In this document: one piece after another, positions 3,744-58,605 of the stretch | How positions within the stretch are numbered: position 1 is the stretch's first letter | Layout: every line of letters starts with the position of its first letter | Assembly (NCBI RefSeq): GCF_009688945.1 | Contig: NZ_AP021874.1 | Span: 2,852,001 to 2,916,000 of the forward strand | From: Desulfosarcina alkanivorans | GTDB taxonomy: Bacteria > Desulfobacterota > Desulfobacteria > Desulfobacterales > Desulfosarcinaceae | Length of the DNA: 64,000 nt | Direction of reading: 5' to 3' | The notes under the pieces: model-generated | What the model saw: the letters and a program-made list of their open reading frames with translations, nothing else | Told to the model about the DNA's origin: nothing | Databases searched by the model: none | Program-made: the position numbers and the translations under genes

Positions 3744-4193
3744 ATGTCCGCCTGGGAGCCTGTAATCGTCGCTTTCTTCTGCAACTGGTGCACCTACGCC
3801 GCCGCCGATCTGGCCGGCGTCGGCCGGATGCAGTATCCGGCCAACATCCGTGTCATCCGCCTGCCATGCAGTGGGCGCATGAGCCCGAAATTCATCCTGG
3901 CGGCCCTCATGCAGGGTGCCGACGGGGTCTGGGTGTCGGGCTGTCACCCGGGCGACTGCCACTATATCTCTGGCAATTATTACGCCCGCAGAAAATTCGC
4001 CTTGTTGACCCGCCTGCTCACTTTCATGGGCGTCGAACCGGACCGGGTCCGGTTCTCGTGGATCTCGTCGGCCGAATCCACCAAATTCATCCGGGTGGTC
4101 AACGAGGTGACTGAACATATCCGCATGCTCGGACCGTCCGACCGTTTTGTCAAACACCCCGCGTCCCACCCCCTTGAGGAGGCTGCATCATGA
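3744..4193 (+). CDS. MvhD/FlpD-like electron-transfer protein, second copy
   Basis: A 149-residue paralogue of the preceding gene with the same three cysteine segments (FFCNWCTYAAADLAG, LPCSGRMSP, GCHPGDCHY). GGAGGAG stands before the ATG. Two adjacent MvhD genes in one operon suggest either a heterodimer or two alternative electron inputs to the HdrD-like protein. Its stop overlaps the start of the next gene (ATGA at 4190-4193), which suggests translational coupling. Confidence 0.88.
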   Translation: MSAWEPVIVAFFCNWCTYAAADLAGVGRMQYPANIRVIRLPCSGRMSPKFILAALMQGADGVWVSGCHPGDCHYISGNYYARRKFALLTRLLTFMGVEPDRVRFSWISSAESTKFIRVVNEVTEHIRMLGPSDRFVKHPASHPLEEAAS

Positions 4194-4690
4194 TTGAACG
4201 GATACACCTGGATCCAAAACTGGAAAAATGCCTGGCAACGCTGAGGAAAGGAAGTCGCCGAACCTGCCTGGCCGCCAATCGGGTGGCGGCCATTATCATG
4301 GAAGTCAAACGCGGAAAACTGCCGCCGGAAGAAATGTGTACCTTTACCCGCAATGGTGAGGCACGCATCAAGGGATGCCGTAAATACAATCTGGGCGCCG
4401 GGTACCGTCTTGTCTCCCTGAAGCAGGGCGATGACCTGTATTTGCTGTTTGTCGGCACCCACGATGAATGCGACCGCTGGATCGAAAACAACCGGGAGCA
4501 CCTGCCGCTGCAAAGGATTGCCGGGCGCTGCAGCACGGTAAAACGAACGGCCCGCAAAAAAAGCGATTCGGAAACGTCACCCCTGATGCCGGAGATGGAA
4601 CCGGATGAAGACTGGATCCCCCCGCTGAGTGACCGCGACCTGCGACGGGTCTTCAGTGGGTTGGTGGGGGACAAACAGGTTGAATCCTGA
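4190..4690 (+). CDS. RelE/HigB-fold-like protein in the redox operon
   Basis: A 166-residue protein. The central part, around GEARIKGCRKYNLG and GYRLVSLKQGDDLYLLFVGT followed by HDECDRWIENN, resembles the RelE/HigB toxin fold. No antitoxin-like gene lies next to it, and it overlaps the second MvhD gene by four bases. The acidic C-terminal 50 residues are extra to the toxin fold. It may have been taken on as a regulatory or RNA-binding subunit, or it may be a solitary toxin. The fold assignment comes from motif memory only. Confidence 0.6.
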   Translation: MIERIHLDPKLEKCLATLRKGSRRTCLAANRVAAIIMEVKRGKLPPEEMCTFTRNGEARIKGCRKYNLGAGYRLVSLKQGDDLYLLFVGTHDECDRWIENNREHLPLQRIAGRCSTVKRTARKKSDSETSPLMPEMEPDEDWIPPLSDRDLRRVFSGLVGDKQVES

Positions 4691-4745
4691 GAATCACAGG
4701 ATCTTGAAATACGGGGATTAACCGGCTTTACGAAAGGATAAGACC

Positions 4746-5057
4746 ATGCTGACCGTCACCGGATCCGCCGCCCAGGCGGTGGCCGAATACTTCAAAACCA
4801 TGGAGGTCAAACCCGTGAGAATTTTTCTCTCCCAGGGATGCGGCGGCCGGCAACTGGCCATGGCCCTCGACGAGGCTAAGCCTTCGGATGCGGTCGTGGA
4901 AACGGGCGGGTTCCAGTTTATCATGGATCGGACGCTGCTTGATCAGGCGCAATCGGTGCAGATCGACTACGCCGACATGGGGTTCAGGATCTCGTCCAGC
5001 CTTGAACTTGCCGGCGGATGCCGGGGCTGCGATACCACCGGTTGCTGCTGCTCTTGA
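4746..5057 (+). CDS. HesB/IscA-like iron-sulfur protein with cysteine-rich tail
   Basis: A 103-residue A-type carrier-like protein. The family has one central cysteine and a C-terminal CxC; here SQGCGGRQLAMAL supplies the first and the end reads GGCRGCDTTGCCCS, with more cysteines than usual. It could deliver or store Fe-S clusters for the HdrD and MvhD proteins encoded just upstream. The gene follows the RelE-fold gene by 55 bases and has a modest AAAGGATAAG before its ATG. Confidence 0.75.
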   Translation: MLTVTGSAAQAVAEYFKTMEVKPVRIFLSQGCGGRQLAMALDEAKPSDAVVETGGFQFIMDRTLLDQAQSVQIDYADMGFRISSSLELAGGCRGCDTTGCCCS

Positions 5058-5087
5058 GGCGGTTTTCAGTCGCAAGTAAATATCCGG

Positions 5088-5349
5088 GCCCGGAGGACCA
5101 GGTTTTGTTTTTCCCTTGAAAAGGGCGGTCGCCGCTTGATTGATTATCACTCAAGCAACAAGTAGTCAGAATTCAGGAGTCAGAAGCCAGAAGCGAAAGG
5201 ACGTCGCTACGCGCCTGCGGTTATATATACGAAGGAATGAGCCAATGGCGAAACCTTCTTCTGGATGCTGAATTCTGACTCCTGGATTCTTTTGTAATGC
5301 CTGCAGGCATAACCCGCTGCCCTGGACCTGGCCCGGAGGACCCGGTTTT
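5088..5349. repeat. Inverted repeat flanked by 19-bp direct repeats
   Basis: CCCGGAGGACCAGGTTTT at 5089-5106 recurs with one change at 5332-5349. Between them lies an inverted pair based on GAATTCAGGAGTCAGAA (about 5169-5200 and 5255-5291). The gap from 5058 to 5427 holds no gene. The structure could be a small non-autonomous mobile element or a transcript-end structure. Confidence 0.55.
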
Positions 5350-5360
5350 CTGGACCGAAT

Positions 5361-5388
5361 AAAAAAAGCCCCGACCTGTCCGGATCGG
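5361..5388 (-). terminator. Intrinsic terminator of the chemoreceptor gene
   Basis: On the minus strand CCGATCCGGACAGGTCGG forms a short stem with one wobble pair and is followed by GGCTTTTTTT. It sits 40 bases past the chemoreceptor stop codon, in the right direction to end that transcript. Confidence 0.7.
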
Positions 5389-5427
5389 AGACTTCTTTTC
5401 ATTCTGAGAGCTATGGCCCGACGAAGA

Positions 5428-7116
5428 TCACACCTTGAAACTGGCGACCACGGAATTGAGCGTCTGGGCAATCCGGCGCAAATCTTCCGCACTGACCTGG
5501 ACCTGTCCGCTGCTGCCGGCCATTTCCCCGGCGGACTGGTTGACGGTGCCGATATCCCGGGAGATCTGCGCCGCCACGCTTGAACTCTGGTTGACGTTTT
5601 CGTTGACCTCTTGGACACCGCTGGAAACCTGGGCAATATTGTTGGCAATTTCCTGTGTGGCAGCGGACTGCTCTTCCACGGCCGATGCAATGGTGGCCAC
5701 AATGTCGTTGATCGTCTTGATCACCTTGGAAATCTCATCGATACCGGACACCGCGCCATCCGTGCTTTCCTGGATGTTGGCGATCTTGCCTTTTATGTCC
5801 AGCGTGGCGTCGGAGGTCTGCTTGGCCAGTTCCTTGATCTCGTTGGCCACCACGGCAAACCCTTTCCCGGCGTCGCCTGCCCGCGCCGCTTCGATGGTGG
5901 CGTTCAATGCCAGCAGGTTCACCTGTTCGGAAATTTCCGTTATGGTTTCAACCACCTTGCCGACACCTGTGGCGGCATTGCCTAAAGCGTCCATCTGTTC
6001 CGAAGCGCCCGTGGCAGTGTCGACGGCCCGGTCGGAAATGCTCCTGGCTTTTCCCGCATTCTGAGCGATTTCGTTGATCGTGGAGCTCATTTCCTCAGCC
6101 GAAGCGGCCACGACGCCGACATTGGTGCTCGACTGCTCCATGGCGGCGGCAACATTGTTGATGTTCGAACTCATCTCTTCCACGGCTGAATAGACGGTAT
6201 CGGATCTTCCGGACATGTCTTCGGCGCTGGCGGACATGCCCGTGGACAGCTCGGCAAGGGTGTTGGATGCGGTGCCGAGGGATGTGGCATTTTGCGCCAT
6301 TTCCTTCATGAGCCCCTGCAGTTTCTCCATGAAGGTATTGAACCAGGCGGCCAGTTCCCCCAGTTCATCCCTGTCGCCCTCTTCCAGGCGTTTGGTCAGG
6401 TCCCCCTCACCCTGGGCGATATCCTTGAGGCCATCGACCATGGCATTGACCGGCCGGGTAATCATTCGGGAAATAAACCAGGCCAGCGAGACACCGACCG
6501 AAACGCCGAACAGGATGGCCACCAGCAATATCGTCTTGGCAGACTTATAGGTAGCCGTGGCACTCTCACTGGCGCGTTGGGCCAGATCGAGATTGATTTC
6601 CGTCAGCTTGTCCAGCTGATCGCGCATCTGTTCAAAATGTTTCTTGGCGCTCCCCAATGTCAACGCCGTGGCCTGTCCGGAGGCCTCGTCAGTGGCCTTT
6701 TGGGCAAGTTCGACCACCTGGCGGGAGTCGATTTGCCATGCTTTCCTGGCCGTTTCGTATACTTCGAAAAGTTCTTTTTCCCTGGCCGTTGTTGCCAGCG
6801 CCTTGTATTTATTCCAACGCGTATCGGATTGACTGAGGCTGGTTTCGTACTCTTTAACGAACTGTTCGAACATGGTGGAGTTGGGATCGGTAAAGATCAT
6901 GGATCGTTCGGCGACCAACAGCTGCTGAAGATCGCGATCGGCTTCGATCAGAAAATCGATGCTGGGCATCTGAACGGAAAAGATCGTTTCCAGCTCCCGT
7001 TGAACGCCGCCCAGGCTGCTGAAGCCGGCATATCCGACAACCCCCATAAAAAGAACCATGATGCCGAAACCGGCCATCAGTTTAACCCGAATCTTCATAT
7101 TTCTGACAAAACCCAT
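5428..7116 (-). CDS. Methyl-accepting chemotaxis protein with four-helix-bundle sensor
   Basis: A 562-residue inner-membrane receptor. A transmembrane helix at about 10-32 is followed by a helical periplasmic sensor of the 4HB_MCP type (about 35-190), a second helix (about 193-215), a HAMP linker containing [19 protein letters not shown], and a long cytoplasmic coiled coil. The signalling tip [20 protein letters not shown] is intact, so it should bind CheA and CheW. No receptor methylation enzymes or other chemotaxis genes lie nearby. No ligand can be inferred. The ATG at 7116 has AGAAGGAGAA just upstream. Confidence 0.92.
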
Positions 7117-49440: not shown

Positions 49441-50037
49441 ATGAATAACATGCCCCCCACGCACCTGCTGACATTTATCGTCCTTGCAACCGCTGCCTAT
49501 CTGGCCGGATCGGTGAATTTCTCCATTCTGGCATTTCGGTTCACCGGTCGGGAGGACCCGCGTCAGCACGGCAGCGGGAACCCCGGTGCCACCAATGTCT
49601 ACCGGCAGGCAGGGCTCGGCTGGGCCGTGACGGTCCTTCTGCTGGATGTGGGTCGGGCGGTCGGCGTGGGCCTGGCGGCCCGTGCGATGCTTCCTTTCTG
49701 GCAGGTACCCTGGGTGGGACTCGGGCTGATCCTGGGCAACCACTTTCCCCTCTTCCACGGCTTCAAAGGAGGCAAGGGAGTGGCCAACTACCTGGGATTC
49801 ACCCTGGCCCTCGCACCGGCGTGGGCCGGCCTCGGTGCCCTGGCCTGGGGAGCGGCCCACCTGATCTGGCACACACCGTTTCTGTCATCCTTTGCCATGG
49901 TTGCAGTTCTGGCCGCCGGAACAGCCGTCGCCGAGGGTGCCCATTGGTGGGGCGCTGCCGGCGCCGCGGCGACCGCCTTGTTCATCATGGCCTGCCACCA
50001 CCGCAACATCCGCGAGCGATGGGGCGGTCAACGGTAG
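49441..50037 (+). CDS. plsY: Acyl-phosphate glycerol-3-phosphate acyltransferase
   Basis: A 198-residue inner-membrane enzyme that makes lysophosphatidic acid from acyl phosphate. The three family motifs are present: GSVNFSILA, GSGNPGATNVYR and GNHFPLFHGFKGGKGVA. It has about five helices. No typical ribosome binding site precedes ATG 49441; ATG 49450 is an alternative. It is followed 145 bases later by the exporter-methyltransferase gene, giving a possible lipid theme. Confidence 0.9.
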   Translation: MNNMPPTHLLTFIVLATAAYLAGSVNFSILAFRFTGREDPRQHGSGNPGATNVYRQAGLGWAVTVLLLDVGRAVGVGLAARAMLPFWQVPWVGLGLILGNHFPLFHGFKGGKGVANYLGFTLALAPAWAGLGALAWGAAHLIWHTPFLSSFAMVAVLAAGTAVAEGAHWWGAAGAAATALFIMACHHRNIRERWGGQR

Positions 50038-50182: not shown

Positions 50183-52954
50183 ATGATGCGACCGAACGTT
50201 TCCATTAACCCGTTTGCACTGGCAGCCGTTACGATCATCGCTGCGACCCTGCTCCTGGTCGCCGTCGGTCGCATGACCATTGTTACCGACATGACAGGGG
50301 CCGCACCCGGAAATGGCCCGGTAGCCGCAGACGGACACCACCGCTCACCCGCCCTTCCCATTGTGGATCCCATCCGCATCGACATCGGCGCCACCGGAGG
50401 GGATGGGGCACGGCTGCTCGCCGCCGCGGAGTGGGTCGAAACGCGGTTGCAGCAAAACGATCTGTTCCCCCGGGCACGGAATCAGCCGATGCCAAAACGC
50501 CTGGCCGACCTGTCGGATCAGGTCATCCCCCATCTGCCGGTGCTGTTCACCGCCGGCGAGCTGCAAGTCCAGGTCGCCCCGCTGCTGACAGACCGGGCGA
50601 TTCGGCAGGCCATGACCCGGTTCCGGACGGACGCCCCCGGGCAGGCGTCGTCAATGGCCATGGACCCGCTGGGACTTCACCGCATGGTCCTGGCCAGACT
50701 GGCCGCCATGAGTCAGGAACCCGGGGCCGCCATCCACCGCGGACGACTTTTCTCCGCGGACCGGCGCCACGTTCTGATCCTGGCCATCCCGATCGGTTCC
50801 GGCACGGATGCGACCGTGGCACGCGCCCTGACCCGGTTCTTCCACGACCTGGACAGGGACCTGGAAAAAAAATTCGGCCGGGAGATCACCCTGACTGCCG
50901 CCGGTACCTTTCGGACCACCCTGGACAACGCGTCCATGGTCAAGGGCGACGTGCAGCGCATCATCCTGTGGAGTGCAACAGGAATCGTCGTGCTGCTGGC
51001 GGCCTGTATTCGTCCCCTGGCTGGGATGCTGTCCCTGATGCCGCCACTGGCCGGGATGATTTCGGCCTTTTTCATTTTCTCATTGACCCACGACAGCATC
51101 TCGATCCTGGTGCTGGGATTCGGGGGCCTGATCGTCTCCATCAGCGTGAACCACGGCATCGCCATCATGGGACTGGCCGACGATGACGCCATAAACGGAG
51201 CAAGGCATGCCGCCCGGGAAATCCGGGCCGTTGGCCTGCCGGCCGTCCTGGCCGCCGTCGGTGCCTTCGGAGCCCTGGCTTTCAGCGGAATTGCCGTTTT
51301 CGAAGAACTGGGACGATTCGCCGCCATGGGCATCGGGTTTTCCTTCCTGTTCGCCCAGACCGTGTTCCCCCTGCTCCTGACAACCGGCCGGCATGGCCCG
51401 ACGCCTGCCGGACGCCGTTTGGCAGGGTTCACGGACCGTCTGACCTCGGCCGGTTGGTCCGGGCTGGCACTGGCCCTGCTGGCTGCGGCCGTGCTGGCCG
51501 TTTTCATCCGGCCGCCTGTTGCCACGGACCGGAAGGCTCCCCAACCCGCCAGCCGGGAAACGAATACGGCCGAAGTCCGGGACAACCGCTTTTCGGATAC
51601 GGTTGTGATGACCGAGGCCGCTGACCTGGCCGCCCTTCAGGCCAAAAACGACCGGCTGCTGGAACTTCTCGAAACCGAAACCCACGCCGGCGGCATTCTA
51701 AAGGCGCTGACGCCCTCCCTCTTTTTCCCCGGCCACCGACGCAGCGCGGAAAATGCCGATGCTTGGAGCCGATTCTGGACCGCAGAACGCGTCCAGCTGC
51801 TCTCCTCGGTGCTCGAGCGGCAAGGCGCAGCCCTGGGATTTGCCGACGGCGAATTCGACCCGTTCCTGAAAATGATAACCACCCCTTCATCCCGCCCTCC
51901 GGCCATCCCGCCCGACCTGCAAGCGCTGCTGGGCATCTCCAGGGATGAAATCGGCGGCCGGTGGGTTCAGACCACCCGCATCACCCCCCGTGAGCACTTT
52001 GACCGTCGTCGGTTCAACGACCGGATGTCCGCCATCTCGACGGTAGCCGACCCGGCACGCCGCTTCCCCGCCATGGGAAAACGGCCCTTCCAAAAAACGG
52101 CCGCCATGCTGCTGATCCTCGGTGCGGGCCTGATCCTCCTGCTGGTCCTCTTTCTGGCCGACGCGGGCCTGTCGTTTACGGCCCTCCTGCCCCCGGCCTT
52201 CGCCGTTGTCTGCACCGCGGGCACCCTGGGCATGACGGGACGCCCCCCGGACATCCCGGCAACAGTGCTGCTGTCGGTCTTCATTGCAGGCCCGGGCGCG
52301 GGCTACGGCCTGTTCCTGATCCGGGGCTGCCAACGCTACCAGCGCTTCGACCACCCCCATTTTTCGGCAGTCCGAACGGCCATGATAATGGGTGCCGCCG
52401 CCACCCTGGTGGTCGTTTGGGTTCTTCCGGCCGCAGACCACCACCTGTTCGAAAAAGCCGGGTGGATCGCCTGCTGCACCATCGGCTACAGCCTGGCCGG
52501 TGCACTGCTGATTCTGCCGCCCCTGCTGAAGCGTCGGTTCGAAGCCACGCCCACGGACACCGGCGGCATCCGACGGCGCTATCGTAATATGGCACCCTGC
52601 CCGAGACTCATGGCCGGCTCCGGGCGGCGTCTGGGCCCGCTGATCGGGGAACTGTCGGCACGGCTGCCGGCCGAAACGGACGCGGCAAACATCCTGGATG
52701 TGGGCTGCGGATATGGGGCCCCGGCCTGCTGGATGGCCGACCGCTATCCCTATGCGATTATCCACGGCATCGACCCGGACCCGGAGCGGGTAAGGGCAGC
52801 GGCCCTGGCATTGGGCCCCCGGGGACGCATCATCAGGGGATCGGCGCCCGATCTGCCGCCCATGGATGTACTGGTGAACCTGGCGACGATGCTTGACGTG
52901 AGCCACCACCTGCAGGACTGGGAACTGGAAAAAAACCCTGGAACGCATCCATGA
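50183..52954 (+). CDS. MMPL/RND-type exporter fused to a methyltransferase, frame broken near the end
   Basis: A 923-residue product. Two sets of helices (about 15-37, 255-410 and 640-780) with periplasmic loops between them match COG4258-like predicted exporters of the MMPL superfamily (GFGGLIVSISVNHGIAIMGL). From about residue 840 a class I methyltransferase begins (AANILDVGCGYGAPACWMAD, then YAIIHGIDPDPERVRAAAL). The frame ends early at 52954 after a run of seven A. One A fewer restores the rest of the methyltransferase up to 53189. Related exporters move lipids or aryl polyenes; the combination suggests export and methylation of a lipid-like product. Confidence 0.75.
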   Translation: MMRPNVSINPFALAAVTIIAATLLLVAVGRMTIVTDMTGAAPGNGPVAADGHHRSPALPIVDPIRIDIGATGGDGARLLAAAEWVETRLQQNDLFPRARNQPMPKRLADLSDQVIPHLPVLFTAGELQVQVAPLLTDRAIRQAMTRFRTDAPGQASSMAMDPLGLHRMVLARLAAMSQEPGAAIHRGRLFSADRRHVLILAIPIGSGTDATVARALTRFFHDLDRDLEKKFGREITLTAAGTFRTTLDNASMVKGDVQRIILWSATGIVVLLAACIRPLAGMLSLMPPLAGMISAFFIFSLTHDSISILVLGFGGLIVSISVNHGIAIMGLADDDAINGARHAAREIRAVGLPAVLAAVGAFGALAFSGIAVFEELGRFAAMGIGFSFLFAQTVFPLLLTTGRHGPTPAGRRLAGFTDRLTSAGWSGLALALLAAAVLAVFIRPPVATDRKAPQPASRETNTAEVRDNRFSDTVVMTEAADLAALQAKNDRLLELLETETHAGGILKALTPSLFFPGHRRSAENADAWSRFWTAERVQLLSSVLERQGAALGFADGEFDPFLKMITTPSSRPPAIPPDLQALLGISRDEIGGRWVQTTRITPREHFDRRRFNDRMSAISTVADPARRFPAMGKRPFQKTAAMLLILGAGLILLLVLFLADAGLSFTALLPPAFAVVCTAGTLGMTGRPPDIPATVLLSVFIAGPGAGYGLFLIRGCQRYQRFDHPHFSAVRTAMIMGAAATLVVVWVLPAADHHLFEKAGWIACCTIGYSLAGALLILPPLLKRRFEATPTDTGGIRRRYRNMAPCPRLMAGSGRRLGPLIGELSARLPAETDAANILDVGCGYGAPACWMADRYPYAIIHGIDPDPERVRAAALALGPRGRIIRGSAPDLPPMDVLVNLATMLDVSHHLQDWELEKNPGTHP

Positions 52955-53189
52955 ACGCCTGCTTCCGGGCGGCCGCCTGATCATGCGCTCCCCGCCGCCA
53001 CCGTCGGCCGCCCGCCACTGGACAGGCCGCCTGGTGCGTTTCAAAAACAGGATCACGGGCCCCGACGCCTGTTACCGGGACCGAGAGGCCCTGAACCGCA
53101 TCCTGGACAAATGCGGCTTCGAGATCCTGGCCGCCCAGACCGCCGGCAGGCGCACCGCGGCCTTCTGGCACGTGGCCCGGCCCAGATAA
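52932..53189 (+). pseudogene. Detached C-terminal end of the exporter-methyltransferase fusion
   Basis: Starting at the A7 tract near 52929-52937, the next frame reads TLERIHERLLPGGRLIMRSP and goes on through AFWHVARPR to a stop at 53189. LLPGGRLIMRSP is the post-motif-IV segment of methyltransferases, so this belongs to the gene before it. A sequencing error, a mutation or slippage of RNA polymerase at the A run could account for it. Confidence 0.75.
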
Positions 53190-54198: not shown

Positions 54199-54395
54199 GA
54201 AGAGGCTTTCAGTTTTGATCCTGGTGATGATGCAGCCCGGCCGGAACCGATAGGTATTCAAATTATCCGGTCCTGTCAAGTCATTGCTCGGCGGTGGAAG
54301 ACCTTGACCCCGCCCGCGCATTGTATTAACTGGTGCCCAGCCAATACCCGCAGCGGCTCAGGCCGCCGTTAACGATTCAAGGATTCAACCCACCG

Positions 54396-57317
54396 ATGAC
54401 GCAACCAGATGAAAACAAGGACACGGTTTCCCTGATGACCGAACGCCTGCTTTGCGGCCCGGCCAGACCGGGTCAGGCGTTCTGCATGCCGGGCAGCAAT
54501 TATGACGAACTTTACCGCATGGCAAGACGGATCAAGGCTTTTTTCAGCAGCCGGAAGGACGACGGCAAACCGGTCTGCCTCTGTTCCGATGACCGCACGG
54601 TAATGGCGGCCGCCCTCCTGGCCTCTCTGGCCGGTGGACCGGAACTGCTGATCCCCCATACCCTGTCGGCCGCCGCCCTCGCGGACCTGCACCGGCTGAC
54701 CGGCTTCACCAGCGCCATCGGCCGGTCCGGCGACCATGTGCCGGCCGGGGTTGCATCAATCGACGTGGACACCCTGGTGGACGAGGCGGAGTCCCTGGCC
54801 GCCGGAGAGGTGCTGACCCCGGACAGCCCCTGGGTCCGTCTGTTCGCCGGCGGCTTCGGCGACAGCGCGCGCCTCTGGTCCAAAACCCCCCGCAACCTGC
54901 TGGGCGAAGTGGACTATCTGGTCAGGCGCTACGAAATAGGCAGCAGCGACCGTATCCTCTCCACTGACCCGCCCCTGCATATTCGCGGGCTGTTACACGC
55001 CGTGCTGATCCCCCTGGCGGTATCGGCGCGGGTGGCGGCAGTGACCCCGTCCCATCCCGAAGCGATCCGCCAGCAGATGGCCGCCGCGTCTCCGACCATT
55101 TTCGTGAGTGTCCCCGCCCACTACCGCGCCCTGGCGGACAACCCGCCGGAACGGGGCGCCCTGCGGCTGGCCTTTTGCGTGTCCGGCACCCTGGACGATG
55201 CCGACGGCGAGGCCTTTTCCCGTGCAACGGAAACGGACCTGGTGGAGATATACGGTTCCACGGCAACGGGCGGCATCGCCACCCGCTGCCGTGCCGGAGG
55301 CGAAGCGGGGTTCACCCCCTACGCCTGCATCCAATGGCGGGTGGCCGGCAACCGCCTGGACGTGCGTTCATCCTTTCTTTCCGACGCGTTGCCGGTGCGC
55401 GACAGCGGATGGTATACCATCGCCGACCGGGTGAAAGCGCATGCGGACGGGTTCGTGGTCTCCGACCCGGCAGCGCCTCGTGTGGTCAAATTCGAACCGG
55501 CCGGGCTGAACGTACCCGTGGATGAGACCAAAACCCTTCAGGAACTGGGAGCCGACCATGGCATCGACATCCGGGCCGACTGCGGCGGCATGGGGGTCTG
55601 CGGCAAATGCCGTGTGCTGGTCCATCCGCAGACGAATTTCTCGCCCCTCTCCGATGCGGAACTGGACGTACTCACACCGGACCAGATGGCCGACGGGTCG
55701 CGCCTTGCCTGCCAGGCCCGGGCCACCGGGACGGCAAGGGTCACCATCCCCGACACCCTGGCGGAAAGTGCCGAGACCCGCGGCAAGACGGGCATTGCCG
55801 GCAGCTATCCGGCGGACCCCATGATCCGGCGGTTCAGCGTGGACGGCCCTTCGCCGGGCCTGAAAACGGACCACACGCCCGAAAGCCTGGTGGACTGGCT
55901 GGCCGACCAGGTGGGGGAAAGGGCGGCCTCGATGGCCGATCCCGCGGCCCTGCGCCAGTTAAGCCGCTACCGCGACAGCCTGAAGGCCTTCACCCTGGTG
56001 GTGCACGGGGAGACCGGCATACGCCGCCTCCTAAAAGGGGATCACACCGTCAGCCTCGGGTTTGCCGTCGATCTGGGCACCACGTCGGTGGCAGGCTACC
56101 TGTGCGACTTGAGGACGGGAAAGCTGCTGGCCGCGGACGCCTGCGTCAACCCCCAGCGACGGTTCGGTGAGGATGTCATCAGCCGGATCAGCCGGATCAA
56201 CGAAAAGGAATCGCATCTGGAACAATTCCAGCGACTGGCCGCAGAAGGCATCAATATTCTCATGACCCGCTGCCTGGAGCAGGCCGGCGCCCCCCATGCC
56301 GCCATCGACGAGGTGGCCGTATGCGGCAACACCACCATGCAGCAGGTTTTTGCCGGATGGCACCCCAACGGGTTAGGGGTATTCCCCTATTTCCCCCTGA
56401 CGCTGACGCCGCCGGTGTTCAACGCCGGGGACCTGGGGTTGGCCACCGACCCGGCCGTGCCCGTATTTCTCATGCCGGTCGTATCGGGTTTTGTGGGCGG
56501 CGACACCATGGCCGCCATCCTGGCGGACCGTCCCCACGAACGGGACGAAACCAGCCTCATCGTGGACATTGGCACCAACGGCGAGGTGGTGCTGGGCAAC
56601 CGGGAGGGGTTGTGGGCCACCAGCTGCGCCACCGGCCCGGCGCTTGAGGGCGCCCAGATATCCTGCGGCATGCGGGCGGTGTCCGGCGCCATCCACCGCG
56701 CCTGGCCGGACGAAAACCTTGGCCGCGTTGCCTACGAGGTGCTGGGAAATGATGGCCGCAATCGGCCCATGGGGCTCTGCGGTTCGGGCATCATCGACGC
56801 CATCGCCGCCCTGCGCCAGCTCGGAGTGATCCGTCCCAATGGTCGACTGGACGAAGCGCGTGACGGCGTGGTGTCCGACCAAGGGGGCATCGGGAGATAT
56901 TACACCCTGGCCGACAAGGATCAGAGCGCCACCGGCAATGAGATTTCCGTCAGCCTGAAGGACGTTCGCCAGATTCAGCTGGCCAAGGGGGCCCTTTGCA
57001 CGGGCATTGAATTTCTCATGCGCAAGGCCGGCATCGGAAAAATCGACCGGACGATCCTCACCGGTGCCTTCGGAGCCCGCTTCAACTGGAAAAACGCCCT
57101 TGCCATCGGCATGCTGCCGCCGGCCGCCGCCCGGGGCGAGGTCATTCCCAGGGAGAACCTGGCCGGCGTGGGGGTGGTAATGGCCCTGCTGGACCAAAAC
57201 CTGAGATCGGAAGCGCGCACCCTCTGCCGCCGTATCCGCTATCTGGAGCTGGCCTCCGAGCCCGATTTTGCCATGGCGTTTGCCCTGGCTACGGGGTTTC
57301 CGGAAATTGAAGGATAG
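54396..57317 (+). CDS. Degenerate adenylate-forming domain fused to ferredoxin and RACo-type corrinoid activator
   Basis: A 973-residue protein. Residues about 1-355 resemble the large domain of adenylate-forming (ANL) enzymes: EIYGSTATGGIATR matches the A5 motif and GWYTIADRV the A7 motif. The ATP loop is degenerate (FAGGFGDSARLWSK), and the C-terminal ANL domain with the catalytic lysine is absent. At about 363-450 is a 2Fe-2S ferredoxin (ADCGGMGVCGKCRV with a later LACQA), then from about 530 a RACo-type ASKHA domain (FAVDLGTTSVAGY, IVDIGTNGEVVLGN, LTGAFGARFNW). RACo proteins reduce Co(II) corrinoids to the active state using ATP. No corrinoid methyltransferase gene is adjacent. ATG 54396 is chosen; GTG 54333 and ATG 54435 are alternatives. 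Confidence 0.85.
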   Translation: MTQPDENKDTVSLMTERLLCGPARPGQAFCMPGSNYDELYRMARRIKAFFSSRKDDGKPVCLCSDDRTVMAAALLASLAGGPELLIPHTLSAAALADLHRLTGFTSAIGRSGDHVPAGVASIDVDTLVDEAESLAAGEVLTPDSPWVRLFAGGFGDSARLWSKTPRNLLGEVDYLVRRYEIGSSDRILSTDPPLHIRGLLHAVLIPLAVSARVAAVTPSHPEAIRQQMAAASPTIFVSVPAHYRALADNPPERGALRLAFCVSGTLDDADGEAFSRATETDLVEIYGSTATGGIATRCRAGGEAGFTPYACIQWRVAGNRLDVRSSFLSDALPVRDSGWYTIADRVKAHADGFVVSDPAAPRVVKFEPAGLNVPVDETKTLQELGADHGIDIRADCGGMGVCGKCRVLVHPQTNFSPLSDAELDVLTPDQMADGSRLACQARATGTARVTIPDTLAESAETRGKTGIAGSYPADPMIRRFSVDGPSPGLKTDHTPESLVDWLADQVGERAASMADPAALRQLSRYRDSLKAFTLVVHGETGIRRLLKGDHTVSLGFAVDLGTTSVAGYLCDLRTGKLLAADACVNPQRRFGEDVISRISRINEKESHLEQFQRLAAEGINILMTRCLEQAGAPHAAIDEVAVCGNTTMQQVFAGWHPNGLGVFPYFPLTLTPPVFNAGDLGLATDPAVPVFLMPVVSGFVGGDTMAAILADRPHERDETSLIVDIGTNGEVVLGNREGLWATSCATGPALEGAQISCGMRAVSGAIHRAWPDENLGRVAYEVLGNDGRNRPMGLCGSGIIDAIAALRQLGVIRPNGRLDEARDGVVSDQGGIGRYYTLADKDQSATGNEISVSLKDVRQIQLAKGALCTGIEFLMRKAGIGKIDRTILTGAFGARFNWKNALAIGMLPPAAARGEVIPRENLAGVGVVMALLDQNLRSEARTLCRRIRYLELASEPDFAMAFALATGFPEIEG

Positions 57318-57489: not shown

Positions 57490-57873
57490 TCAGTCTATCA
57501 ATGCCGTACACTTGATCTCCACGCACCCGCCCTTGGGCAGCGCACTCACCTCGACGGCGGCGCGCGCGGGTTTATGCGCTGGAAAATACTCGGCGTAGAT
57601 GGCGTTGAAGTCCATGAACCGGTCCATATCGGTGAGAAAAACTTCCACGACGGTCGCCTGCTCCAGGCTGCTGCCGGCGGCGACAAGGATCTGCTTCACG
57701 TTTTCGAGGGCCTGGCGCGCCTGGCTTTCCAGGTCCTCCCCCACCAGGTTCCCGGTAGCCGGGTCCATGCCCAGCTGGCCGCTGACAAAAACGAACGGTG
57801 CGGCAACCACGGCCTGTGAATAGGGGCCGATGGCCGCCGGGGCGCTGTCGGTGTGAACCGTTTTTAAACTCAT
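57490..57873 (-). CDS. RidA-family enamine/imine deaminase
   Basis: A 127-residue protein with the YjgF/RidA pattern: SAPAAIGPYSQAVVA, then FVSGQLGMDPATGNLVGEDL, and the C-terminal ARAAVEVSALPKGGCVEIKC with the key arginine. It clears reactive 2-aminoacrylate and similar imines formed by PLP enzymes. AAGGAG precedes the ATG. Confidence 0.92.
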   Translation of the reverse strand: MSLKTVHTDSAPAAIGPYSQAVVAAPFVFVSGQLGMDPATGNLVGEDLESQARQALENVKQILVAAGSSLEQATVVEVFLTDMDRFMDFNAIYAEYFPAHKPARAAVEVSALPKGGCVEIKCTALID

Positions 57874-58008: not shown

Positions 58009-58605
58009 CTACCCCTGGCGATTCGACAACGCCTGGACCATGGCCTTACCGGCTTCGTAGGCCTCTTTCAATGCGGCCGGGGATTCCTGAATCTGTCCTT
58101 CGGTTTCGATGTTCTTGTACAACAGGGATTTCCACAACTGCATATCCAGCGCATCCATGAAATATTTTACGCTCAACTGTGCGCCTTCAAACAGCCGTTT
58201 TCCCTTGGTGGACCCGACGGAGATAAACAGGCCTTTCCGGGGATAGTTTTTCTGGCCGAAGGGTTTTTTGTCTATCCAATATTTTTTTACCCAGAGGGAG
58301 TTGCAGCGATCCATCAGGATCTTGGTATGGGCGCTGACCGTGTAAAAAAAAATCGGTGACGCCAGCATCAACCCGTCGGTGCGCTGCAGCAGGGATTCGA
58401 CAGGCCCGAAATCATCCTTGATGACACAGGACCCGGCTTTTTTACACCCGTATATTTCCAGGCAGGGAGACATCTTCAAATCCCGCAACACGATTTCAGT
58501 GACCTGCGCACCGGCATCGCGCGCACCGGCGACGGCATGGTTGAGCAGGGTTGAGGTATTGCCTTTTCGGCGCGGGCTTCCAAATACGGCGGCGATCTCT
58601 ATCAT
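58009..58605 (-). CDS. NADPH-dependent FMN reductase/flavodoxin-fold protein
   Basis: A 198-residue flavoprotein: EIAAVFGSPRRKGNTSTLLN (flavin phosphate loop), cysteines in MSPCLEIYGCKKAGSCVIKD, and LMLASPIFFYTVSAHTKILM. It is the same family as the gene at 21934 but not a close copy. It probably reduces a quinone, metal or thiol-linked substrate. Confidence 0.88.
   Translation of the reverse strand: MIEIAAVFGSPRRKGNTSTLLNHAVAGARDAGAQVTEIVLRDLKMSPCLEIYGCKKAGSCVIKDDFGPVESLLQRTDGLMLASPIFFYTVSAHTKILMDRCNSLWVKKYWIDKKPFGQKNYPRKGLFISVGSTKGKRLFEGAQLSVKYFMDALDMQLWKSLLYKNIETEGQIQESPAALKEAYEAGKAMVQALSNRQG

Follow-up and report, generated by a model that had tools for sequence, protein, structure and literature searches.

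The window analysed here, a stretch of 64,000 nucleotides from the genome of Desulfosarcina alkanivorans (contig NZ_AP021874.1, positions 2,852,001–2,916,000), carries on its forward strand an open reading frame in which the N-terminal core of an ANL-type ligase is fused in front of a RACo-type corrinoid activator (Table 1). The frame ends at 57317 and can be read from a GTG at 54333 (994 residues) or an ATG at 54396 (973 residues), the latter lying near the position at which most homologues start in the alignment. The source genome (G000 below) is a single contig of 7.32 Mb, estimated to be 97% complete with 7.5% contamination. In the C-terminal half, the Pfam domains Fer2 (41.6 bits, cutoff 21), Raco_middle (161.6 bits, cutoff 26.8; E 2e-47), and RACo_C_ter (238.3 bits, cutoff 27; E 1e-70) all score above their cutoffs, and this half aligns end to end with the RACo structure 3zyy (E 4e-76), including the ferredoxin cysteines of CGGMGVCGKC and LAC. 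The fusion protein does not reach the NCBIfam cutoffs of AcsV (NF040756; 340.4 of 800 bits) and Rama_corrin_act (TIGR04270; 83.9 of 500 bits). The domain order is not that of a RACo without further domains, an ANL N-core being added in front. Pfam AMP-binding (PF00501) matches the added part only over residues 198–318 of the 994-residue frame (E 1e-13). Modeled alone with AlphaFold, residues 1–365 give a pLDDT of 88.6 and a pTM of 0.90, and the predicted structure has the fold of an ANL N-terminal domain, matching solved ANL enzymes in Foldseek (MatB, E 1e-19) and benzoate-CoA ligase 6m2o in VIA-align (Z 37.3, 356 residues aligned). This part is 55–69% identical to the same domain of seven other fusions, 63% identical to an unfused copy in a related genome (G009), and 34–45% identical to eleven stand-alone ligases. 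Because the AlphaFold model of the full-length fusion has a pTM of only 0.62, as compared with 0.90 for the N-terminal part alone, neither a confident packing nor a fixed arrangement of the ligase and RACo halves is predicted.

Table 1 Features of the fusion gene and of neighbouring cluster remnants (window coordinates).
Feature	Position	Strand	Detail and basis
ANL(N-core)-Fer2-RACo fusion gene	54396..57317	+	973 aa; ORF listing, Pfam, identity to relatives
Degenerate ANL N-terminal domain, residues 1-365	54396..55490	+	Pfam, alignments, AlphaFold, Foldseek, VIA-align
Degenerate ATP loop FAGGFGDSARLWSK, residues 150-163	54843..54884	+	Relatives FTGGSTGAPRLWSK; alignment, near-invariant count, model
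A5-like motif YGSTATGG, glutamate lost (E290A)	55251..55274	+	Relatives YGSTETGG; alignment
A7-like motif GWYTIADR, intact	55407..55430	+	Alignment
RACo half, residues 366-973	55491..57314	+	Aligned with 3zyy residues 1-604 of 608
2Fe-2S ferredoxin domain, CGGMGVCGKC...LAC	55503..55727	+	Pfam Fer2, alignment with 3zyy
RACo middle region	56055..56531	+	Pfam PF17651
RACo C-terminal ASKHA domain	56547..57305	+	Pfam PF14574
PlsY-like acyltransferase, cluster remnant	49441..50037	+	Neighbour comparison; relative's copy scanned
MMPL-type membrane protein with C-terminal methyltransferase domain, cluster remnant	50183..53189	+	Relative's copy scanned

The active site of the ligase half is worn. Using the motif names A3, A5, A7, A8, and A10, which we take to be those of the corresponding ligase motifs, the ATP loop (A3) reads FAGGFGDSARLWSK in the window as against LFTGGSTGAPRLWSK in the relatives, the substitutions T151A, S154F, T155G, G156D, and P158A leaving no A3 motif, and its residues 153–156 have pLDDT values below 50 in the model of the N-terminal part. 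The ANL C-terminal subdomain with the catalytic lysine (A10) is missing between residues 365 and 366, and is present in the fusions of G002, G003, G004, and G006. The first-pass annotation of this gene had described an ANL-type domain fused before a RACo-type activator, with a degenerate ATP loop and without the catalytic C-terminal domain, all of which is borne out, as is the structural match to ANL enzymes on which that description had been made to depend; its further statement that A5 and A7 are kept holds for A7, and not for A5, of which the glutamate is lost. In a leave-one-out count over the aligned rows, the window departs from the near-invariant N-core positions at 13 of 82, G001 at 20 of 82, and G011 at 9 of 82; the fusions of G002, G003, G004, G006, and G012 depart at 1–2 of 62–84, the unfused G009 copy at 3 of 69, and the stand-alone ligases at from 0 of 82 to 18 of 92. 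Since distant rows also depart often (13 of 89 in L050, 18 of 92 in L079), the count alone is no proof of a loss of function, and the positions affected weigh more. The ligase half of G001 is worn like that of the window, in the ATP loop, the same E290A substitution, and the missing C-terminal subdomain; that of G011 has lost the C-terminal subdomain and has an intact ATP loop. It is likely, because the remnants at the junctions of G000, G001, and G011 differ in the alignment, that at least two independent in-frame deletions removed this subdomain.

A continuous ligase–RACo frame is found in eight of the 13 genomes of the Desulfosarcina-like genus (G000, G001, G002, G003, G004, G006, G011, and G012), on single-contig assemblies in three of them (G000, G001, and G006); the G003 contig opens inside the ligase. 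In G007, ligase and RACo pieces lie frameshifted at contig ends and cannot be judged for fusion. The ligase of G009 stands alone, with a stop codon directly after it, no RACo match following 3′ of it, and a downstream RidA-like gene (L067) as at the fusion loci. No fusion was found in G005, G008 (63% complete), and G010, in the other 17 genomes of the family, 11 of which have a stand-alone ligase at E ≤ 1e-90, or outside the genus among 395 sampled genomes of the phylum with two candidates scored per genome, among which long frames of G163 and G117 have a RACo match and no ligase match. Other phyla were covered by one contig scan with six peptide patterns, yielding 5 loci. Literature searches found no published report of an AMP-binding/RACo fusion, which does not prove that none is in print. 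Judged from this distribution of sequences, the gene fusion appears to be an old one of the Desulfosarcina-like genus and is not an artefact. As to the G003 bin, it is probably mixed, because two of its contigs carry different ligase beginnings (L048 and L074), the latter resembling the G011 lineage.

In several relatives, the same fusion contains a complete ligase. The loop LFTGGSTG.P..W.K, YGSTETGG, and a C-terminal subdomain with ATGK.DR are all present in the fusions of G002, G004, and G006, and the same intact features are seen in G003 where visible; after this subdomain, the ferredoxin begins in the intact fusions and the RACo remnant in G004. The G012 fusion (L035, 9449–12574, forward strand) has the loop and the lysine region and an in-frame deletion of ~29 residues inside the C-terminal subdomain. 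Stand-alone homologues are open frames of 456–582 residues, and the one scanned (L047) has both AMP-binding and AMP-binding_C. They adjoin varying sets of genes for ketosynthase (KS), a polyketide synthase dehydratase–phosphopantetheinyl transferase (PS-DH-PPTase), a PlsY-like acyltransferase, a family-25 glycosyltransferase, an MMPL protein with a methyltransferase domain, a polysaccharide deacetylase, and radical S-adenosylmethionine (SAM) proteins, and the fusion occupies the place that the stand-alone ligase has in other clusters. The B12-binding radical SAM protein of the G002 cluster passes TIGR04072, named 'lipid biosynthesis B12-binding/radical SAM protein' (378.7 bits, cutoff 360). 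'Ladderane' clusters of unknown function are reported in metagenome-assembled genomes of Desulfobacterota (PMC9902471), and the authors of another study suggest that the acyl-CoA ligase of ladderane-like type II fatty acid synthesis (FASII) clusters could serve glycerol attachment (PMC2649909). The assignment of the cluster as an aryl polyene cluster with a histidine ammonia-lyase was rejected, the ~508-residue gene encoding PS-DH plus phosphopantetheinyl transferase; PF00221 matches were also rejected as cluster genes, as they map to other places of the genomes.

The cluster core is missing from the genome of the window. The cluster KS is found at 87–100% identity in G002, G004, G006, and G009, and at 73–78% in G001 and G005, which carry another, stand-alone ligase; the best matches reach only 37–38% in G000 (38%), G003, G007, G010, G011, and G012, and G008 has no match at E 1e-60. 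The PS-DH-PPTase distribution agrees with that of KS except in G012, which has this gene at a contig start, and in G000 only a distant match in the PPTase part exists, so that neither the KS nor the PS-DH-PPTase of a ladderane-type cluster was found in the G000 genome. Only the PlsY-like and MMPL-methyltransferase genes are left in the window, the latter being frameshifted: its frame ends at 52954, with the rest of the methyltransferase in another frame to ~53189, and an unbroken copy is present in a relative (L036). On the other side of the fusion, a RidA-like gene (57490–57873) and an FMN-reductase-like gene (58009–58605, reverse strand) lie 3′ in several species of the genus.

The two halves of the fusion decay reciprocally. 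RACo is kept and the ligase C-terminal subdomain lost in G000, G001, and G011, whereas G004 keeps ligase and cluster with a RACo from which the ferredoxin domain and part of the ASKHA domain are missing, and G009 keeps ligase and cluster with no RACo attached. The ratio of branch nonsynonymous divergence (dN) between the ligase N-core and RACo is 2.2–2.5 in G000, G001, and G011 (2.43 on the window branch, 95% bootstrap 1.79–3.31) and 1.1–1.5 in G002, G006, and G012. On the window branch, the ratio of nonsynonymous to synonymous divergence (dN/dS) of RACo, 0.23 (0.16–0.31), is below the 0.39 of the N-core, although pairwise counts are rough at these distances (proportion of synonymous differences, pS, about 0.4–0.6). 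Excluded from the rate tests were L034 (broken RACo) and L067 (no RACo), and from the final test also L048, a partial sequence, which in an earlier test had given ligase/RACo branch dN values of 0.026/0.049 over 191 codons.

Homology argues strongly that the RACo half is a corrinoid activator. The corrinoid domain PF02607 has 10 matches in the G000 genome, none inside the window; seven are corrinoid proteins that share 77–92% identity with one of G006, an MTTB gene (Pfam) is present at five of the seven loci, and no RACo lies beside any of the seven in the 12-kb stretches read. At one MttB/corrinoid locus of G000, the pterin methyltransferase is split over two frames (L091, 6803–7653, forward strand), and a fragment of another copy is found in L095 (6324–6629). 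RACo_C_ter has five matches in G000, including the fusion and one short piece; the others are found with a UroD-like gene and a pterin/corrinoid fusion gene (L092), with CdhD and a pterin-binding gene (L097), and with no recognised methyltransferase beside it (L098). The 534-residue protein of L092 (9318–10922, reverse strand) combines both B12-binding domains with a pterin-binding methyltransferase domain in one chain. Among the ten nearest unfused RACo loci read (L037–L040 and L061–L066; 43–53% identical over most of RACo), six (L038, L039, L040, L063, L064, and L066) have MttB-like, UroD-like, pterin-binding, B12-binding, or DUF1638 genes, and L037, L061, L062, and L065 have no such genes recognised on the stretch read. 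At L063, a UroD-like methyltransferase is fused to a complete corrinoid protein (4033–5940, forward strand), adjoining another corrinoid gene, and both a lactate-racemase-like gene and RACo follow downstream.

Among the matches listed, a corrinoid protein of at least 70% identity occurs in 8 of the 14 genomes with this RACo clade as against 1 of 21 without it, and a pterin methyltransferase of at least 60% in 10 of 14 as against 0 of 9, 'without' meaning no such RACo among those matches. The Fisher values (0.0009 each) overstate the association, because both cutoffs were picked after the matches were seen (G042 being exactly at 60), the five RACo genomes from outside the genus were picked for containing the relative, and genomes so closely akin do not count as independent cases. 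Glycine betaine, proline betaine, carnitine, and gamma-butyrobetaine are reported to be demethylated by enzymes of the MttB superfamily, whose corrinoid proteins may require activators (PMC9768040). From the co-occurrence and the genome inventory, it is a reasoned guess that the MttB-type corrinoid loci are the likeliest targets of RACo. For G004, an explanation of the broken RACo by loss of its partner was rejected, as the remaining corrinoid protein (of this type, at 82% or more, there are three in G006 and one in G004) lies in an MttB/corrinoid/pterin-methyltransferase locus.

Taking together the observed domains, predicted fold, degeneration, complete ligase in the relatives, reciprocal decay, and absence of KS and PS-DH, we consider it reasonably probable that the gene is an old fusion of two complete enzymes, of which only RACo is still needed, the front part being a relic that folds but is catalytically dead. 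The ligase that became joined to a complete RACo would have been a complete ANL acyl/aryl ligase from a ladderane-type lipid/polyketide cluster. In the lineage of the window, the cluster core would then have been lost, as would the ATP loop, the A5 glutamate, and the C-terminal subdomain of the ligase half, leaving the front 365 residues as a folded passenger, presumably without function, that carries the start codon. The RACo half, with an activity predicted by homology, would take electrons via the 2Fe–2S cluster and use ATP at the ASKHA domain to bring corrinoid proteins that had been accidentally oxidised to Co(II) back to Co(I). These proteins would be encoded elsewhere, most likely at the seven MttB-type loci of G000 without an adjacent activator of their own. 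The front part is more likely to be a leftover than a new switch, because the relatives point to a fusion that began with both enzymes complete and the halves of which decay separately.

Several observations weigh against this reading. Cluster loss and ligase decay do not coincide everywhere: G012 has PS-DH-PPTase and yet a shortened ligase C-terminal subdomain (its KS was not found), the ligase of G003 looks intact without KS and PS-DH (in a bin that seems mixed), and the cluster retained in G001 has a stand-alone ligase of its own. The dN-ratio intervals of G002 (0.89–2.31) and G012 (0.98–2.28) overlap that of the window, the dN/dS of the window N-core (0.39, 0.26–0.62) is well below 1, and that of the G011 ligase (0.28) is no higher than those of intact ligases (0.19–0.28). 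The deletions in G000, G001, and G011 all start near the hinge and spare the N-core, which, together with the confident fold prediction, points either to a need for a folded N-core or to a recent relaxation. The unfused G009 ligase nests among fused ones in the tree (82/87), but a clade of all fused rows without G009 is not rejected by the approximately unbiased (AU) test (p 0.091), so that G009 may either have lost RACo or have branched off before the fusion. As for the partners, G004 retains an MttB/corrinoid/pterin-methyltransferase locus despite its broken RACo, G001, G003, G007, G033, G037, and G042 have the RACo clade without a corrinoid protein at 70%, and in G016 the corrinoid protein is present with no member of the RACo clade among the matches listed.

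It is possible, if doubtful, that a working RACo serves methionine synthase or a UroD-type methyltransferase in place of the MttB-type loci, a proposal about the partner alone and compatible with a relic front part. In Phaeobacter and Desulfovibrio, reactivation of methionine synthase is reported for related DUF4445 proteins (PMC5764234), and some of the nearest unfused relatives sit with UroD-like and DUF1638 genes; however, two other RACos of G000 already have adjacent partners of their own (UroD/corrinoid at L092, CdhD and pterin-binding at L097), and this RACo co-occurs with the MttB-type corrinoid protein and the pterin methyltransferase.

An unlikely alternative is that the N-core is retained as a pseudo-enzyme without catalysis, which would act as a scaffold, sensor, or dock, bind a ligand or a partner protein, and thereby tune the activator or determine its location; slightly less likely again is its more specific form, in which the N-core was kept folded after the loss of the cluster as a ligand sensor or dock gating the activator. 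The dN/dS of the N-core below 1, its confidently predicted fold, the deletions in three genomes that start near the hinge and spare it, and the A7-like motif and 69 of 82 near-invariant positions still kept would all be expected of a retained domain. On the other hand, the near-invariant losses include five ATP-loop positions and A5, the ligase half has 2.4 times the dN of RACo on the window branch, and the full-length model shows no confident packing. A coupling of the halves is also not needed, because G004 and G009 are without a working linked RACo and several fusions hold a complete ligase. The ligand-binding gate or methyltransferase dock proposed in the first-pass annotation is likewise not supported: the fusion contains a complete ligase in other species, its halves are lost independently, and all 10 corrinoid-domain matches of G000 lie outside the window.

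Very improbable, in our view, is an ancestral coupling in which RACo served the lipid/polyketide cluster, for example by re-reducing the cobalamin of its B12-binding radical SAM enzyme. Such an enzyme of the ladderane-associated family is indeed encoded in the G002 cluster, and the fusion stands where a stand-alone ligase stands in other clusters, but no RACo lies in the stretches read of stand-alone-ligase clusters, G009 has the cluster without RACo, G000 and G011 have RACo without the cluster KS, and recognised genes of corrinoid-methyltransferase or DUF1638 type are found instead at 6 of the 10 nearest unfused RACo loci; because the losses are reciprocal, this tie is ranked low. An assembly or joining error, a doubt raised at first, is practically negligible, being refuted by independent assemblies with the fusion in eight of 13 genomes and on three single contigs.

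Fusions are commonly read as proof of shared function, whereas here one half or the other decays in sister species and its partner is kept, which argues against a shared function imposed by the fusion. A relic origin would explain the otherwise puzzling pseudo-enzyme domain, and one orphan activator may serve several corrinoid/MttB-type loci in trans in this sulfate-reducing genus. If, instead, the N-core should prove to be a retained pseudo-enzyme, a biosynthetic ligase would have turned into a regulatory domain of corrinoid reactivation.

The fusion is worth comparing with the systems from which its parts are known. In gene content, its presumed cluster of origin is similar to the ladderane-like FASII clusters known from Kuenenia stuttgartiensis and Desulfotalea psychrophila, sharing fabF paralogues, SAM radical enzymes including a B12-binding one, an acyl-CoA ligase, a polysaccharide deacetylase, a SAM methyltransferase, and an Mmp-like membrane protein; the excerpted description of those clusters contains no activator fusion (PMC2649909), and the window differs from them in retaining only the PlsY-like gene and the frameshifted MMPL-methyltransferase. 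The stand-alone ANL ligases of ladderane-type clusters in Desulfobacterota (e.g., L041–L047), surrounded by varying sets of PlsY, MMPL, deacetylase, or radical SAM genes, are 34–45% identical to the N-core and keep the ATP loop and the C-terminal subdomain, both of which the window has lost. Benzoate-CoA ligase (6m2o, 4rlf) is alike in the fold of the N-core over the 356 aligned residues (Z 37.3) at an identity of 18%, whereas the window is without the ATP loop, the A5 glutamate, and the C-terminal subdomain. Compared with RACo (3zyy and 4c1n, which we take to be the protein of Carboxydothermus hydrogenoformans), the ferredoxin, middle, and ASKHA parts align over residues 1–604 of 608 of 3zyy, the differences being the 365-residue ANL domain in front and a window without a corrinoid-domain gene. 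The domain order is new, and its component parts are ordinary.

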